From the NCBI RefSeq assembly GCF_002843175.1, contig NZ_PJEO01000037.1, positions 1 through 33,323 on the forward strand: DNA of 33,323 nucleotides. Direction: 5' to 3'. Below are positions 4,260 through 33,304 of this stretch, one piece after another. The stretch is from Confluentibacter flavum (GTDB lineage: Bacteria > Bacteroidota > Bacteroidia > Flavobacteriales > Flavobacteriaceae). The position numbers and the translations under genes are program-made. Each line of letters opens with the position of its first letter. Position 1 is the first letter of the stretch. The notes beneath the pieces were generated by a model, which did not search any database, had not been told where the DNA came from, and was given only the letters and a program-made list of their open reading frames with translations.

Positions 4260-5117
4260 ATGAGTAAATTAAGAATTGCAGTTCAAAAAGCGGGTCGTTT
4301 ACACGACGAATCCATGGATATTTTAAAAGACATCGGTGTGTATATCGACAATGGAAAAGATCAATTAAAAGCATCTGCCAAAGGGTTTCCTGTAGAAGTA
4401 TTTTATTTAAGAAATGGCGATATTCCTCAGTATCTAAAAGACGGCGTGGTTGATGCAGCCATCATTGGAGAAAATATTTTAATAGAAAAAGGCGAGGGCA
4501 TTACCATTGCCGAAAAATTAGGGTTTTCTTCTTGCAAAGTGTGTATTGCGGTCCCAAAGGCCATGAAATATAATAGTATTAAGGATTTGGAAGGAAAACG
4601 TATAGCAACTTCTTACCCCAACACGGTACAAAATTATTTAGATAAAAATGGTATAAATGCACATCTGCACATTATTAATGGTTCGGTTGAAATTGCTCCT
4701 AATATCGGACTTGCCGATGCTATTTGCGATATTGTTTCCAGCGGAAGTACCTTGTTCAAAAACAATTTAAAGGAAGTTGAAACCATTTTAAAATCGGAAG
4801 CCGTTTTAGCTGTTTCACCTATTTTAAGTGAAGAAAAACAGGCCATTTTGGATACCATTCAGTTTAGAATTCAATCCGTTTTAAAAGGAAGACAATCTAA
4901 ATATATATTGTTGAATGCGCCTAACGATAAAATACAAGACATTATTAATGTCTTACCGGGCATGAAAAGTCCAACAGTATTGCCTTTAGCGGAAGCGGGG
5001 TGGAGTTCTGTACATTCCGTCATAAGCAAAAATGAGTTTTGGAACGTGATAGAAGAGTTAAAAAAGAATGGTGCCCAAGGTATTTTGGTGTGTCCGATTG
5101 AAAAAATGGTTCTTTAA
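4260..5117 (+). CDS. hisG: ATP phosphoribosyltransferase HisG
   Basis: Catalyses the first committed step of histidine synthesis, joining ATP and PRPP to phosphoribosyl-ATP, and is normally feedback-inhibited by histidine. The 285 residues fit the long, self-regulated HisG with a C-terminal ACT-like regulatory domain (about 210-285), and no HisZ is needed. The PRPP-binding signature is visible as GSVEIAPNIGLADAI (141-155) followed by DIVSSGSTL (157-165). I start at 4260, giving MSKLRIAVQKAGRL, rather than an in-frame ATG at 4221, because the 13 extra residues do not look like HisG and the earlier ATG sits within the tail of the attenuator. First gene of the his operon; hisD starts 10 nt after its stop. 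Confidence 0.96.
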   Translation: MSKLRIAVQKAGRLHDESMDILKDIGVYIDNGKDQLKASAKGFPVEVFYLRNGDIPQYLKDGVVDAAIIGENILIEKGEGITIAEKLGFSSCKVCIAVPKAMKYNSIKDLEGKRIATSYPNTVQNYLDKNGINAHLHIINGSVEIAPNIGLADAICDIVSSGSTLFKNNLKEVETILKSEAVLAVSPILSEEKQAILDTIQFRIQSVLKGRQSKYILLNAPNDKIQDIINVLPGMKSPTVLPLAEAGWSSVHSVISKNEFWNVIEELKKNGAQGILVCPIEKMVL

Positions 5118-5127
5118 TTAAATAAAA

Positions 5128-6411
5128 ATGCAAATTATAGATAATCCAAGTCGCGATACTTGGACCGACATATTAAAACGACCGACCCAAACGGTAGATG
5201 ACATTGAAGCTACGGTCAACGTTGTGTTTAATGACATACGCAATGATGGGGATTTGGCCGTTAAAAAATATACCGAACGCTTTGATGGCGTGACATTGGA
5301 TTCCAATATGGTAACCCTTGAAGAACTTCAAGAAGCTTCAACTTTGGTTTCAGATGCGTTGAAGGATGCAATTGACTTAGCAAAGTTGAATATAGTAGCA
5401 TTTCATGCAGCCCAAAAAACAACTAGAATTACCTTAGAAACCACTGAAGGTGTTAGCTGTTGGCAAGAAAAACGCCCCATTGAAAGAGTCGGTCTATACA
5501 TTCCAGGAGGTACTGCACCGTTGTTTTCCACGGTGTTGATGTTAGCGGTTCCTGCCCAAATTGCTGGTTGCAAAGAGATTGTATTATGTTCGCCACCGAA
5601 TAAACAAGGTAACGTTGCCCCGGAAATTTTATACGCGGCACAACTTTGTGGCGTTACTAAAATTATTAAAGTCGGTGGAATTCAAGCGATTGCTGGTTTA
5701 ACGTTTGGCACGGAATCCATTCCTAAAGTGTATAAAATTTTCGGGCCGGGAAATCAATTTGTGACGGTTGCAAAACAACTGGCTACAAAGTATGGTGTTG
5801 CTATTGATATGCCTGCTGGGCCTAGTGAGTTATTGGTTATTGCTGATGAAACCGCAAACGCATCTTATGTGGCATCCGATTTGTTAAGTCAGGCAGAACA
5901 CGGTACCGATAGCCAAGTTATATTGGTTTCGACTTCTAAAGATGTCATTAAAAATATTTCCAAAGAAATTGAAAAACAATTGGAAGTCCTTCCGCGTAAA
6001 GCGATTGCCAAAAAATCTATAGCGAATTCAAAACTGATTTATGTTGAAAGTGATGATATGGCTTTGGAACTGATAAACGAATACGGACCAGAACATTTTA
6101 TTATTTGCACAAAGAATGAAAATTTTTATGTAGATGGTATCGCTAATGCAGGTTCTGTTTTTATTGGGAATTATACACCCGAAAGTGCTGGGGATTATGC
6201 CTCTGGAACCAATCATACCTTGCCTACTAATGGGTTTTCTAAGGCCTATTCTGGGGTGAATTTGGATAGCTTTTTAAAGAGTATGACGTTTCAGAAAATA
6301 TCAAAAGAAGGATTAAAAAATATAGGAAACGCTATCGAATTGATGGCTGAAGCCGAAGGTTTGCAAGCACACAAAAATGCGGTAGCGATACGATTGAAGG
6401 ATTTAAAATAA
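5128..6411 (+). CDS. hisD: Histidinol dehydrogenase HisD
   Basis: Catalyses the last two oxidations, L-histidinol to L-histidinal to L-histidine, with NAD+ and a zinc ion. At 427 residues it has the standard length. Zinc ligands and catalytic residues align with the Escherichia coli enzyme at a constant offset of four: Gln255 and His258 in LLSQAEHGTDS, the Glu322-His323 pair in NEYGPEHF, Asp356 in ESAGDYASGTNH, and His415 in LQAHKNAV. The gene follows hisG by 10 nt. Downstream, an 82-bp repeat element fills the gap to hisC. Confidence 0.97.
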   Translation: MQIIDNPSRDTWTDILKRPTQTVDDIEATVNVVFNDIRNDGDLAVKKYTERFDGVTLDSNMVTLEELQEASTLVSDALKDAIDLAKLNIVAFHAAQKTTRITLETTEGVSCWQEKRPIERVGLYIPGGTAPLFSTVLMLAVPAQIAGCKEIVLCSPPNKQGNVAPEILYAAQLCGVTKIIKVGGIQAIAGLTFGTESIPKVYKIFGPGNQFVTVAKQLATKYGVAIDMPAGPSELLVIADETANASYVASDLLSQAEHGTDSQVILVSTSKDVIKNISKEIEKQLEVLPRKAIAKKSIANSKLIYVESDDMALELINEYGPEHFIICTKNENFYVDGIANAGSVFIGNYTPESAGDYASGTNHTLPTNGFSKAYSGVNLDSFLKSMTFQKISKEGLKNIGNAIELMAEAEGLQAHKNAVAIRLKDLK

Positions 6412-6430
6412 TAATGTGTCATGCTTAAGA

Positions 6431-6512
6431 TGTCACCCTGAGCGCAGTCGAAGGGTTGTTTCAGCATCACAAATAAAAATTTATGAGACACTGAAAGGAA
6501 TTCAGTGTGACA
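6431..6512. repeat. 82-bp two-stem element, copy 1 (hisD-hisC spacer)
   Basis: The unit has perfect 6-bp inverted ends, TGTCAC (6431-6436) and GTGACA (6507-6512). Stem A pairs ACCCT (6435-6439) with AGGGT (6452-6456) around GAGCGCAGTCGA. The unit continues with TGTTTCAGCATC and then carries stem B, ACACTGAA (6488-6495) with TTCAGTGT (6501-6508). It ends 6 nt before the hisC ATG. The same layout and length recur at 29441-29523 and 29535-29616. Confidence 0.75.
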
Positions 6513-6518
6513 AAAAAA

Positions 6519-7562
6519 ATGAATATACAAGATTTAATACGGCCAACCATAAAAGCTCTAAAACCTTATTCATCCGCACGTGATGAATTTCAAGGTGTAC
6601 CTGCCGATATGGTATTTTTGGATGCCAATGAAAATCCGTTTGAAAATGGCGTAAACCGTTATCCGGATCCGCAACAAGGAACATTAAAAGCTCTATTATC
6701 TGAAATTAAAGGAATTACTTCCAAAAAAATCCTTTTAGGAAATGGCAGCGACGAAGTTTTAGATTTGATTTTCAGGGCATTTTGTGAGCCAAACCAAGAT
6801 AATGTCATTATACTTCCTCCAACATATGGCATGTATGAGGTGTTGGCGAATTTGAATGCGGTAGATATCATTAAAGTTGATTTAGATAATACGTTTCAAC
6901 CGAAAGTCAATGAGATATTAAATGCCGCCAATGCAAACAGTAAAATTTTATTTCTGTGTTCACCCAACAATCCAACAGCTAACAGTTTTGAAAGCTCTAA
7001 AATTGAAAAACTAATTACTGAATTTAAAGGATTGGTCGTTATCGATGAAGCTTACATTGATTTTTCAAATGAAGCCAGTTGGCTCAGCAGATTGAATGAA
7101 TTCCCGAATTTGGTCGTTACGCAAACCTTATCAAAAGCCTATGCAATGGCAGGTATTCGCTTGGGGATTTGTTATGCTTCCGCAGAAATCATTTCGGTTT
7201 TAAATACCATCAAACCACCTTATAATATAAATGAACTGACACAGAAAAAAGCCATTGAATTACTTAGTATTAAGGATTTAGCTTCCAATCAAATCAGTGA
7301 TATTTTAAAGGAGCGAACTAAATTAATGGCTGAGTTAAAAAACATTACGTTTATTTCCAAAATATATCCTTCGGATGCTAATTTCATTTTGGCAAAAGTA
7401 GATGATGCCAATAAACGTTATAATCAACTTATTGAAAAAGGTATTGTGATTAGAAATAGAACCACTCAAGTGGGCTGTGAAAATTGTTTACGCTTTACTG
7501 TAGGTACATATGATGAAAATGAGAAATTAATAAAAACCCTTTTATTAATTTCGAAATCCTGA
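6519..7562 (+). CDS. hisC: Histidinol-phosphate aminotransferase HisC
   Basis: PLP-dependent class I/II aminotransferase converting imidazole-acetol phosphate and glutamate to L-histidinol phosphate. The 347 residues are typical. PLP features include Asn-Glu-Asn-Pro near the start (LDANENP, 34-40), GNGSDE (74-79), SPNNPT (148-153), DEAYIDF (176-182) and the Schiff-base lysine Lys206 in TLSKAYAMAGIRLG. A GTG at 6507 would add four residues encoded by the end of the upstream repeat; the ATG at 6519 gives the normal N-terminus. At the other end, the TGA stop (7560-7562) lies inside a palindrome (7557-7575), so a repeat fragment determines where the protein ends. A GIY-YIG gene, foreign to the pathway, comes next. 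Confidence 0.96.
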   Translation: MNIQDLIRPTIKALKPYSSARDEFQGVPADMVFLDANENPFENGVNRYPDPQQGTLKALLSEIKGITSKKILLGNGSDEVLDLIFRAFCEPNQDNVIILPPTYGMYEVLANLNAVDIIKVDLDNTFQPKVNEILNAANANSKILFLCSPNNPTANSFESSKIEKLITEFKGLVVIDEAYIDFSNEASWLSRLNEFPNLVVTQTLSKAYAMAGIRLGICYASAEIISVLNTIKPPYNINELTQKKAIELLSIKDLASNQISDILKERTKLMAELKNITFISKIYPSDANFILAKVDDANKRYNQLIEKGIVIRNRTTQVGCENCLRFTVGTYDENEKLIKTLLLISKS

Positions 7563-7575
7563 ACTTGTTTCAGGA
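7557..7575. repeat. Palindrome (stem-B half unit), left flank of the GIY-YIG gene
   Basis: TCCTGAA-CTTGT-TTCAGGA. Its core CCTGAACTTGTTTCAGG is the exact reverse complement of stem B in the repeats at 29501-29517 and 29594-29610. It overlaps the hisC stop codon. Confidence 0.75.
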
Positions 7576-7603
7576 ACTTTTTATTGAATAAGAATTATTA
7601 TGA

Positions 7604-7885
7604 ATGAAAAAATATTATTGTTACATATTAACAAATAAAAATAGGATTGTATTATATATTGGCTATACTGATAATTTAAAGAAAAGAATTAACCAACACC
7701 AAAAAGGAGCAGGTGCGTTATTTACCAAAAAGTATAGTGTAGTTGATTTAGTTTATTATGAGGAATTTGAAGAAATGAAAATTGCTAAATCTCGCGAAAA
7801 ACAATTGAAAAATTGGCATAAAGACTGGAAATGGAATTTAGTTAAAGAAACTAATCCAAAATTAGAGACATTAATATTAATTTAA
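7604..7885 (+). CDS. GIY-YIG nuclease-superfamily small protein
   Basis: A 93-residue single-domain protein of the GIY-YIG fold (YhbQ/UPF0213-like). The first strand YYCYILTN (4-11) and the second VLYIGYTDNLKKRINQH (16-32) supply the Tyr, Ile-Gly-Tyr and catalytic Arg elements, and the Glu of SREKQLKNW (65-73) matches the metal-binding glutamate. It belongs to no histidine step, yet it lies between hisC and hisB. It is flanked by two related palindromes (7557-7575 and 7890-7910), which suggests an inserted cassette. Codon use is more AT-rich than the his genes around it. An earlier ATG at 7600 is in another frame and stops after 12 codons. Real enzymatic activity is unproven; a role in moving or processing the palindromes is only a hypothesis. 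Confidence 0.85.
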   Translation: MKKYYCYILTNKNRIVLYIGYTDNLKKRINQHQKGAGALFTKKYSVVDLVYYEEFEEMKIAKSREKQLKNWHKDWKWNLVKETNPKLETLILI

Positions 7886-7889
7886 AGAG

Positions 7890-7910
7890 GTCCTGAAATA
7901 AATTCAGGAC
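7890..7910. repeat. Palindrome (stem-B half unit), right flank of the GIY-YIG gene
   Basis: GTCCTGAA (7890-7897), loop ATAAA, TTCAGGAC (7903-7910): a perfect 8-bp stem of the same CCTGAA/TTCAGG family as the left flank at 7557-7575. It begins 4 nt after the GIY-YIG stop codon. Confidence 0.75.
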
Positions 7911-7926
7911 ATATAACTAAAGTTAT

Positions 7927-9060
7927 ATGCAAAAAGTATTATTTATAGATAGAGATGGTACCATCATTAAGGAGCCTGGCGATGAGCAAATTGATTCCTT
8001 TGAAAAATTGGAGTTTTACCCCAAAGTGTTTCAATATTTAAGTAAAATCGCCAAGGAACTGGATTACGAAATCGTCATGATTACCAATCAAGATGGTTTG
8101 GGTACACCCGCTTTTCCAGAAAACACGTTTTGGCCTGTGCATAATTTCATTCTTAAATGTTTTGAAGACGAAGGTGTTGTTTTTAAGGAACAATTTATAG
8201 ACAGGACCTTTGCAAAAGACAATGCGCCCACAAGAAAACCAAATACAGGATTATTGACCAAATATTTTTCTGAAGCATACGATTTAGAGAATTCATTTGT
8301 GATAGGCGATAGGTTAACGGACATTGAATTGGCAAAAAACCTAGGAGCCAAAGGCATTTATATAAACGACAATACCCATTTGGGAACCAATGAAATCACC
8401 GTGAAACGTGACGAATTAGATGCTTTTATTGCTCTAGAAACGAATGAGTGGGCTAAAATATATGGGTTTTTAAAGGCTGATGATAGACTGGGAGGCATTA
8501 TAAGAAATACCAATGAAACTAAAATTGCTATCCAAATTAATTTAGATGGAACTGGCAAAAGCAAAATAGATACGGGAATTGCTTTTTTTGATCATATGTT
8601 GGACCAGATTGCACGTCATGGACAATTGGATTTAACCATTCAAGTAGATGGCGACTTAGAAGTTGATGAACACCATACCATCGAAGATACCGCCATTGCC
8701 TTAGGTGAATTGTTTCATAAGGTTTTAGGGAACAAATTGGGGATAGAACGTTACGGATTTTGTTTGCCCATGGACGATTGTTTAGCGCAAGCTGCCATCG
8801 ATTTTGGTGGTAGAAATTGGTTGGTTTGGGAAGCGGATTTTAAACGCGAAATGGTTGGTAAAATGCCAACGGAAATGTTTTATCATTTCTTTAAATCGTT
8901 TACCGATGGTGCTAAATGCAACTTGAATATTAAAGCAGAAGGCACGAATGAGCATCATAAAATTGAAGCCATTTTTAAAGCCTTTGCCAAAGCCATTAAA
9001 ATGGCGGTGAAACGCGATATTGAAAAAATGATTTTGCCTTCCACAAAAGGGATGTTATAA
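7927..9060 (+). CDS. hisB: Bifunctional histidinol-phosphatase / imidazoleglycerol-phosphate dehydratase HisB
   Basis: Two fused enzymes in 377 residues. Residues 1 to about 165 form an HAD-type phosphatase (FIDRDGT with Asp8 and Asp10; [10 protein letters not shown] with the acidic motif at 128-132) that dephosphorylates histidinol phosphate. Residues about 185-377 form the dehydratase, with its metal-binding DEHHTIED and [11 protein letters not shown] motifs, which makes imidazole-acetol phosphate. Odd point: the zinc-binding loop of the E. coli phosphatase domain (Cys93, His95, Cys101, Cys103) is replaced here by Asp92, Thr94, Ala100 and Thr102, with the adjoining RKP conserved. The phosphatase therefore probably works without structural zinc. 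The gene follows the GIY-YIG cassette after 41 nt. Confidence 0.96.
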
Positions 9061-29440: not shown

Positions 29441-29523
29441 TGTTATTCTGTCCCGATAGCTATCGGGATGTTTCAGAATCTCACACATAACAAAGGAGAA
29501 CCTGAAACAAGTTCAGGTTGACA
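29441..29523. repeat. 83-bp two-stem element, copy 2
   Basis: Begins TGTTA (29441) and ends TGACA (29523). Stem A is the perfect palindrome TCCCGATAGCTATCGGGA (29451-29468) followed by TGTTTCAGAATC. Stem B is CCTGAAACAAGTTCAGG (29501-29517) followed by TTGACA. Same layout as 6431-6512. Confidence 0.75.
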
Positions 29524-29534
29524 ATATATGGTTT

Positions 29535-29616
29535 TGTCATTCCGAATTTATTTCGGAATCTTATACAACAATAGAAGTCATCATTTACAAGAACCTGAAA
29601 CAAGTTCAGGTTGACA
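29535..29616. repeat. 82-bp two-stem element, copy 3
   Basis: Inverted ends TGTCA (29535-29539) and TGACA (29612-29616). Stem A is ATTCCGAAT-TTA-TTTCGGAAT (29539-29559) and stem B is CCTGAAACAAGTTCAGG (29594-29610), identical to copy 2. It stands tandem with copy 2, 11 nt away. Confidence 0.75.
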
Positions 29617-32398: not shown

Positions 32399-33304
32399 AT
32401 GATTTCCGATTCTAAAATTACTGAAATTTTCTGTTCTATTGATGATTTTTGTCTTGAATTTGTCCCTTTTTGGCAAAAAAGCCTACTGGCCAATGGAAAA
32501 AAGCGCACCAGAGCTTCAAAAATGGGCCTCTCTGAAGTAATGACCATTCAAGTGCTTTTCCATTTATCCGGGTATAAAACCTTCAAGGATTTTTATATAG
32601 GCTATGTCTCAAAACATCTAACCAGTTATTTTCCAAACCTGGTATCCTATAATCGTATGGTGGAACTCAAAGGGCAAAGCTTTATGCCCCTGGCTATTTA
32701 CCTCAAAGTTTGTGGATTGGCAAATTGTACGGGGATTAGTTTTATAGATTCTACGCCCCTAAGGGTTTGTGACAAGCGAAGAATTAACCAACATAGGGTA
32801 TTCAAGGATTTGGCACAAAGGGGACAATGTTCCCTGGGTTGGTTCTATGGTTTCAAATTGCACATAATCACCAATGACCAAGGCGGTATCATTGATTTTA
32901 TGATAACTAAAGGCAATGTGGATGATAGAAAACCTTTACGCTTCAAAGCCTTTGTTAAAAAGCTGTTTGGGAAGCTCTTTGGTGACAAAGGCTACATCTC
33001 CAAAGATCTATTTACTGAGTTGTTCTATAATGGAGTGCATCTGGTAACCAAGCTTAAAAAGAACATGAAAACAAAACTATTGACCCCTGTGCAAGATGCT
33101 TATCATTTAAGAAAAAGGGCCATTATCGAAACTATTTTTGACCAACTCAAGAACATTTGCCAAGTTGAACATTCTAGACATAGAAGCGTAACCAACTACT
33201 TCAATAATATTTTTGCCTCACTTATTGCCTATAATTTTAAAGATAGAAAACCTTCTTTAAAAAACAACTTCGTCGATACAAAGCAACTGTATTTAACTTT
33301 ATAA
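32399..33304 (+). CDS. IS982-family transposase
   Basis: A 301-residue DDE transposase, full length. The catalytic triad is Asp117 (SFIDSTPLRV), Asp196 (FGDKGYIS) and Glu244 (AIIETIFDQLKN). The N-terminal part (MISDSKITEIFCSIDDFC) and HRSVTNYFNNIFASLIAYNF near the C-terminus are typical of IS982. No frameshift or stop interrupts it, so the copy may be active. ATG at 32399 is the natural start. Confidence 0.92.
   Translation: MISDSKITEIFCSIDDFCLEFVPFWQKSLLANGKKRTRASKMGLSEVMTIQVLFHLSGYKTFKDFYIGYVSKHLTSYFPNLVSYNRMVELKGQSFMPLAIYLKVCGLANCTGISFIDSTPLRVCDKRRINQHRVFKDLAQRGQCSLGWFYGFKLHIITNDQGGIIDFMITKGNVDDRKPLRFKAFVKKLFGKLFGDKGYISKDLFTELFYNGVHLVTKLKKNMKTKLLTPVQDAYHLRKRAIIETIFDQLKNICQVEHSRHRSVTNYFNNIFASLIAYNFKDRKPSLKNNFVDTKQLYLTL

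Follow-up and report, generated by a model that had tools for sequence, protein, structure and literature searches.

A gene for a small GIY-YIG nuclease enclosed by palindromes can be found within the his operon of Confluentibacter flavum, between hisC and hisB, in a stretch of 33,323 nucleotides (NZ_PJEO01000037.1, positions 1 to 33,323, forward strand; hereafter the window) that is contig C15 of a genome of 4.14 Mb in 57 contigs (G000). The locus is best explained as an inserted cassette in which the nuclease gene is nested in a head-to-head pair of its own putative recognition repeats, which would belong to the super-family of repetitive extragenic palindromes (REPs) tagged with CGTC; judged from sequence, we give this reading a probability of roughly 0.77. 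Gene and flanking repeats appear to have arrived together. The parts of the cassette and the two his genes that enclose it are the following, G001 and G002 being two of the four congeners of the window genome (G001 to G004).

7604..7885, forward strand: GIY-YIG nuclease gene, 93 amino acids, of a REP-associated subfamily bearing W75 (PF01541, AlphaFold2 model, dN/dS)
7552..7579, forward strand: upstream CGTC-type REP with a degenerate tag (CGAA for CGTC); perfect stem at 7557-7575, arm 7, loop 5
7890..7910, forward strand: downstream REP palindrome, arm 8, loop 5; inner GAG retained, outer GAC tag lost
7523..7552, forward strand: left hairpin across the hisC tail, arm 13, loop 4
7910..7929, forward strand: right hairpin reaching the hisB start codon, arm 8, loop 4
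7518..7950, forward strand: the GIY-YIG/REP cassette as an island of identity between G001 and G002, 4 mismatches in 433 bp
6507..7562, forward strand: hisC, as called by the open reading frame (ORF) finder; likely ATG start at 6519
7927..9060, forward strand: hisB, ORF call

Nucleases of this kind can be found beside such palindromes in many lineages. When a single genome for each species was scanned with a profile, at least 570 relatives emerged; the 80 best were analyzed together with flanks of at most 10 kb, and a tagged palindrome was defined by a perfect arm of at least 7, a loop of 4 or 5 and GTC at one outer end. Such a palindrome lies within 500 bp of the gene in 68 of the 80 loci, on both sides in 53, and GTC faces outward in the nearest REP in 47/61 upstream and 44/60 downstream cases. 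When the distance is set at 300 bp, for which three loci with less flank than that were left out, the nuclease gene has tagged palindromes on both sides in 52 of 77 loci, on one side in 13 and on neither in 12, as against both sides for 2 and one side for 48 of the 989 other predicted genes of the same loci, and both sides for 1 of their 306 ORFs of at most 160 amino acids. With intergenic sequence only taken into account, palindrome density is 6.7/kb within 300 bp of the gene vs 0.30/kb beyond 1.5 kb. According to record titles, palindrome-bearing loci belong to Bacteroidota, Balneolaceae, Chloroherpetonaceae, Patescibacteria, Proteobacteria, Gastranaerophilales, Treponema, Nitrospinae, Chloroflexi, Sedimentisphaerales and Mesoaciditogaceae, several of them being metagenome bins whose host names depend on binning.

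Plasmids provide a similar picture. A tblastn search of a plasmid collection with the window protein returned 33 records, 14 of them in genera taken as named for CGTC REPs (Sphingobium 6, Sinorhizobium 4, Neisseria 2, Azospirillum 1, Novosphingobium 1). Sixteen of the 33 loci were inspected, and CGTC or TGTC REPs were present on both sides in 10 and downstream only in 1, a CCTC-like tag in 2 and none in 3. The stems vary by lineage, with ATCCTCGGG or ATCCCAGGG in rhizobia, ACCCCGGG in Sphingobium and ATTCCCGC in Neisseria. In Azospirillum lipoferum 4B (positions 4995-5288 of locus L102), the GIY-YIG gene is found with CGTC REPs between sufB and sufC, another conserved operon.

The association moreover characterises one subfamily. 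Several searches together gave 173 distinct GIY-YIG genes, 168 of which had full flanks; a tagged REP accompanies 106 of the 132 that have a tryptophan at the place of W75 of the window protein (W-type genes), on both sides in 85, vs 1 of the 36 others (Fisher p 2e-18), and this sole REP-bearing non-W gene reads as a W-type gene with leucine at that place. From each of five genomes, three to five of the paralogues were taken, beside which different REP classes can be found (CTGAA with loop 5, CCTGC with loop 4, CCGCA with loop 5, and others). These were W-type genes, apart from L220 with its leucine in place of W75. For 60 comparisons that allowed a match, a paralogue and its nearest counterpart from a different genome shared their hand-assigned REP class 47 times, for an expectation of 20.1; 0 of 2000 shuffles attained 47. 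Since shuffling was confined within genomes, common descent of the hosts alone is insufficient to account for the pairing. Likewise, four REP features (stem, loop, tail and tag) all track the gene when placed on a 110-gene tree (0/200 shuffles each; 98, 110, 100 and 96 genes used, respectively, with rare states set aside), the tail motif doing so loosely (47 changes vs 60.9 when shuffled). One locus (L215, G091:C1:1186000-1194600) has four W-type paralogues within about 6 kb, with three REP classes beside them.

The palindromes beside these genes fit, by their sequence, the published CGTC-tagged REPs. As defined in 2013, the latter have a stem of 8 or 9 with complementary A and T at the first two positions, a loop of 4 or 5, mostly a CCA tail, TGTC or CCTC as variant tags and a predominance of inverted pairs (PMC3733652). 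The hosts given there are alpha-Proteobacteria, Neisseria, Rickettsia, Bacteroidetes and others, the CGTC-1 REPs of Neisseriae being dRS3 (PMC3733652). It is also stated that CGTC REPs "apparently lack a dedicated transposase" (Di Nocera et al., 2013), and none was found beside tyrosine transposases (PMC3733652). Around the window gene the shape is that of CGTC REPs, with arms of 7 and 8, loops of 5 and an inverted pair; the upstream arm of 7 is one under the published stem length, its first pair being mismatched.

The product of ORF 7604-7885 matches PF01541 (GIY-YIG) above the cut-off, with E 6e-19, and Y7, Y18, G20, R28, H32 and E65 are invariant across 41 alignment rows; the invariant positions include the motif tyrosines, glycine, arginine and metal-binding glutamate, to which catalytic roles are ascribed in GIY-YIG enzymes. 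Its AlphaFold2 model is a lone GIY-YIG domain (pLDDT 94.9) and is matched by Foldseek to UPF0213 (1zg2), Slx1 and UvrC, the nearest solved folds being 1zg2 and the branched-DNA nuclease Slx1. The gene is under purifying selection, with a ratio of nonsynonymous to synonymous divergence (dN/dS) of 0.15 vs G002 and 0.13 vs G001. An NCBIfam scan of the protein gave only partial matches, far under the cut-offs. A role in anti-phage defence was rejected, PADLOC matches being weak and partial (best E 4.5e-4 across 27 residues), as was a phage origin, for which five phage records near the E 1e-4 limit, at 33-36% identity, were found.

The his cassette is an insertion, because the junction in which it sits is close to gapless in relatives. 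Sixty Flavobacteriaceae genomes were surveyed, 50 of them with HisB, and in the best 30 loci, including the window, the distance from hisC to the first matched HisB residue was taken. The gap is 0-10 bp in 22 of the 29 junctions other than that of the window, 16-91 bp in six and about 1 kb with another frame in one; the GIY-YIG gene is present in none of these 29. The cassette occupies the hisC-hisB junction in the window genome, G001, G002, G091, G174 and G095, and a second place, between hisH and hisA, in G048 and G148. G003 has a remnant with the start and end of the gene and its middle deleted, and the frames of G091, G174 and G148 bear stops; these decayed copies, in G003 and in other genera, suggest that the cassette is dispensable. 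In G004 the hisC-hisB junction has no gene and holds a REP pair of other classes instead, and that of G023, from another genus, contains what we read from its sequence as a degenerate REP pair.

The edges of the insertion overlap the neighboring genes. The hisC stop codon, TGA at 7560-7562, sits within the upstream palindrome, and the HisC C-terminus reads LISKS in the window and KTLKDLK in the cassette-free G004. G004 holds only the left arm of the hairpin at 7523-7552, of which, in our reading of the sequence, the left arm would match native hisC and the right arm would be its inverted copy. A counterpart of the right hairpin, TGATTAAC/GTTAATCA, can be found in G095 and G174 at hisC-hisB and in G048 and G148 at hisH-hisA.

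Comparison of the congeners adds a short homogenised tract. Between G001 and G002, the only mismatches within 7518-7950 are at 7580, 7582, 7602 and 7801, against 133 in 999 positions of hisC before the island and 112 in 1107 of hisB after it, and the edges of the island lie at most about 25 bp from the hairpins on both sides. The gene itself has a synonymous divergence (dS) of 0.021 (1 synonymous difference in 48 sites) and a dN of 0 for this pair, vs a dS of 0.664 for hisB, 0.693 for hisC and 0.454 for hisH; between the window and either congener, dS is 0.25-0.27 for the gene and 0.88-1.02 for hisB. Homing, or recent transfer to the same site, would be expected to leave such a short tract of homogenised sequence coinciding with the gene. 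The stretches 7518-7579 and 7888-7929 show zero mismatches in all three pairs among the window, G001 and G002, and may therefore themselves be under selection.

A preliminary description, made from the letters of the window, had placed a 93-residue GIY-YIG gene between hisC and hisB (the ORF and PF01541 match above), with related palindromes at 7557-7575 and 7890-7910 and the same sequence in elements at 29441-29616; all of this was confirmed, the core CCTGAA-N5-TTCAGG recurring within the latter block at 29499-29519 and 29592-29612. Its proposal of an endonuclease gene carried within, or mobilised with, the palindromes is supported by the co-location and by the insertion into a near-gapless junction. 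The two outcomes that it had named as speaking against the idea did not materialise, for homologues lie beside palindromes far more often than other genes do (52/77 vs 2/989, and 1/306 for the short ORFs), and the gene-free junction is the common state.

In the genome as a whole, CCTGAAN{3,9}TTCAGG occurs at 25 sites, the reversed control at 2. A protein search returned four matches, namely the window gene, a close homologue at C56:60214-60477 (52% identity, E 6e-26) and weak homologues on C53 (with an internal TAG) and C23. Of the 25 palindrome sites, nine are found no more than 2 kb from one or other close homologue (2 at C15:7604 and 7 at C56:60214), and none within 2 kb of the weak ones; all five genomic copies of the variant CCTGAAATAAATTCAGG are likewise beside the two close homologues. 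The C56 gene, whose palindromes keep the tag, is embedded in an array whose paired units read TGTCAT-stem-ATCTC...GAGA-stem-TGACA. The internal part of such pairs, TTCAGNATCTN{8,38}AGANNCTGAA, has 11 forward and 3 reverse matches in the genome, 9 of these falling in the C56 array, and 0 in the reversed control; it is present in four of the five genomes searched (the window genome and three of its four congeners), G003 being without it. Chance palindromes were rejected on these counts against the reversed control and on the locus controls.

Pairs of REPs without a gene can be found in the window as well:

6417..6512, forward strand: gene-less REP pair in the hisD-hisC interval, TGTCA...TGACA; counterpart in G001, none in G002
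29441..29523, forward strand: REP pair 3' of leuB, a second palindrome (29451-29468) lying inside the loop of the first REP (from sequence)
29535..29616, forward strand: second REP pair 3' of leuB, with stems CCGAA and CTGAA (from sequence)

Both leuB-downstream pairs are absent at that place in G001, G002 and G003, which bear other repeats there; in G002 (L256) and G001 (L254), the spacer contains a different repeat, TGTCACTTCGAG...CGAAGCATGAGA. REP pairs resembling the C56 array were also seen at G001:C23:256358-256584 (L272, L275), and G001 has no second GIY-YIG homologue at E 1e-8. Palindromes of different families can be nested, the loop of a REP holding a second palindrome, CCCGATAGCTATCGGG or CCCTGAGCGCAGTCGAAGGG, as at 29441-29478 and 6417-6475 of the window and at 4920-5960 of L020; CCCGATAGCTATCGGG is repeated several times in the C56 array. 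On C53 (L021 4570-5030, G000:C53 at about 84.6-85.0 kb), the GIY-YIG frame with its internal TAG is flanked by a tRNA-like start broken by CCCGATAGCTATCGGG and by a complete tRNA-Asn gene (4956-5030) with a similar start. As to transposases, a DDE transposase gene lies at 32399-33304 of the window, near the right end of the contig (PF13612, E 5e-69). The window genome has 15 Y1_Tnp matches, seven of them with equal score, which possibly represent an IS200-like burst in the window lineage; none were found in G001 and G002.

With respect to how such a cassette could spread, the enzyme would recognise its own REP as a single strand or as an extruded hairpin and would nick it at or near the GTC tag. 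GIY-YIG enzymes hydrolyse DNA and do not join ends, so that spread would need host repair or replication, which would copy a REP-gene-REP or a bare REP-REP donor, as in homing; the gene-less REP pairs would then be the non-autonomous form. The window copy has lost the outer GTC tags of its palindromes while purifying selection acts on its gene, so that it is probably a long-established copy, which may be protected from the enzyme it encodes; the C56 array, by its sequence, would be the better candidate for an active element. On a broader scale, we are inclined, if only slightly, to think that CGTC REPs are the ends of widespread mobile cassettes encoded by W-type GIY-YIG nucleases, REP-gene-REP being the autonomous and REP-REP the miniature form, and that every nuclease paralogue propagates the REP class belonging to it through copying akin to homing, in this case into a conserved amino-acid operon.

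Several observations weigh against the cassette and its mobility. The two REPs of the window gene do not carry a CGTC or TGTC outer tag, the upstream one having CGAA and the downstream one none. Neither side has a tagged REP within 500 bp in 12 of the 80 loci, and orientation is mixed, the nearest REP being reversed in 14/61 upstream and 16/60 downstream cases. No tagged REP accompanies 26 of the 132 W-type genes, of which seven are the his clade, where the tag was lost, and several others have untagged or imperfect palindromes; 13 of the 60 pairings between paralogue and hand-assigned class failed. Inspection by eye revealed no target-site duplication, and no excision product was seen. Transformation or recombination over a short distance could have produced the identity island without the help of the enzyme, and the tree of the his clade is weakly supported (64/84), too weakly to order the two his junctions.

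Among the other explanations, the one that comes closest takes the nuclease to limit or shape the uptake of single-stranded DNA in transformation, as reported for Ssn of Neisseria, with the REPs serving as marks and the spread of the cassette a by-product of recombination. The short identity tract at the cassette would agree with this, as would the Neisseria homologue flanked by ATTCCCGC palindromes, the CGTC-1 REPs of Neisseriae being dRS3 (PMC3733652); the nesting of the gene in REP pairs, however, exceeds what a mere mark needs, and we hold this explanation to be possible rather than probable. A host-adopted regulator is unlikely. In that case hairpins and nuclease would tune his expression, with the hisC stop in a REP and a hairpin over the hisB start, and would be kept for that purpose and not as a selfish element. 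The stretches 7518-7579 and 7888-7929 are indeed free of mismatches among the three congeners despite a dS of 0.88-1.02 for hisB between the window and the other two, the gene has a dN/dS of 0.13-0.15, and the same subfamily is found within the his operon in eight genomes. Nevertheless, the frames of G091, G174 and G148 bear stops and G003 retains a deleted remnant, two different his junctions are occupied while 0/29 other examined junctions carry the gene, and the same type of gene is found at unrelated places, e.g., sufB-sufC in Azospirillum.

Two further explanations would make the nuclease a mere companion of the repeats. The REPs could be moved in trans by tyrosine transposases (REP-associated tyrosine transposases, RAYTs, or Y1 transposases), the GIY-YIG gene being a passenger caught between two of them; the 15 Y1_Tnp matches of the window genome would suit this, yet G001 and G002, with cassette and recent homogenisation, have no such match at E 0.001, and in the 57-contig window assembly contigs C15 and C56 are free of them, while none of the 25 sites has one within 2 kb on its own contig. 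The REP class moreover goes with the GIY-YIG paralogue, and CGTC REPs were not found beside tyrosine transposases in 2013 (PMC3733652). RAYT mobilisation, very improbable in our estimate, was rejected on the Y1_Tnp scan of the window genome, G001 and G002. It is hardly credible that the palindromes are ordinary terminators or mRNA stabilisers gathering at any small intergenic gene, with the nuclease a bystander: REPs are reported to be located mostly downstream of coding regions (PMC3733652), but two-sided REPs accompany only 1/306 ORFs of at most 160 amino acids vs 52/77 nuclease genes, the intergenic-only density is more than 20-fold higher beside the nuclease, and the non-W GIY-YIG genes score 1/36. 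A terminator-only reading, contradicted by the gene, ORF and density controls, was thus rejected.

Should the nuclease cassette be confirmed, CGTC REPs would gain a partner enzyme, and their origin and spread would become testable with short oligonucleotides and a protein of 93 amino acids, paralogues with distinct specificities being available inside single genomes. Short palindromic repeats would have a second, chemically different route for populating bacterial genomes, by a hydrolytic nuclease instead of an HUH transposase, and short repeats once held to be enzyme-less may have an enzyme of their own.

Regarding known systems, Ssn, reportedly described in Nature Communications in 2025, is said to be a widespread GIY-YIG family that cuts single-stranded DNA at a cognate repeat and was first found in Neisseria meningitidis. 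It shares with the present genes a small GIY-YIG enzyme, a repeated sequence, and an occurrence in Neisseria with many homologues. A Neisseria homologue that we take to be the published Ssn is 44% identical to the window protein, with shared motifs, and is flanked by ATTCCCGC palindromic repeats. What differs, judged from the sequences, is that the present genes are nested within pairs of REPs, are linked to the CGTC type, show a pairing of paralogue and class and include a homing-like island; the Ssn paper is not known to tie the enzyme to CGTC REPs, to such nesting, to paralogue-by-class pairing or to homing. If this account of Ssn is right, the pair of enzyme and repeat is of a known kind, GIY-YIG enzymes with a cognate repeat are probably no novelty, and the remark of the preliminary description that its author had not seen such pairs described may be out of date. 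The link to REPs and the mobile-cassette reading may be new. No report of a pairing between GIY-YIG and REPs was found in the openly licensed literature, judged mostly from listings; GIY is not mentioned in the portions available of PMC6006769 and PMC5082802, nor are RAYT, endonuclease, excinuclease or UvrC in that of RepRanger 2025 (PMC12306157).

The published CGTC-tagged REPs and the palindromes described here have in common the CGTC or TGTC tag, a stem of 8-9, a loop of 4-5, A-T first pairs, a CCA-like tail, inverted pairs and overlapping host groups (alpha-Proteobacteria, Neisseria, Bacteroidetes); in contrast, both copies that flank the window gene are tagless, and no partner enzyme is reported in the part of the paper at hand (PMC3733652). 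The likeness to UPF0213 GIY-YIG proteins (PDB 1zg2, 1ywl) lies in the domain and a similar size; a sequence profile places these two closest among solved structures, and fold comparison likewise points to 1zg2. A difference is that non-W GIY-YIG genes, some of which may be UPF0213 proper, are rarely beside REPs (1/36).

The preliminary description had drawn an analogy with REP/RAYT pairs. REP/RAYT (REPIN) systems have an enzyme gene within inverted REPs, gene-less REP pairs elsewhere and a match between enzyme and REP class, and the analogy stands for this layout and for the pairing of paralogue and class (47/60). The gene beside the REPs is not, however, an HUH tyrosine transposase as in RAYTs and REPtrons; it encodes a GIY-YIG hydrolase, for which no ligation step is expected. 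Finally, group I intron-encoded and free-standing GIY-YIG homing endonucleases share the GIY-YIG domain, apparent spread at one site and a short co-converted tract, and the empty junctions in relatives together with the identity island at 7518-7950 would fit spread into an empty allele. Unlike in those systems, no intron is seen here, the 93-amino-acid protein has no separate DNA-binding domain, and the REPs on either side of the gene are its presumed cognate sites.

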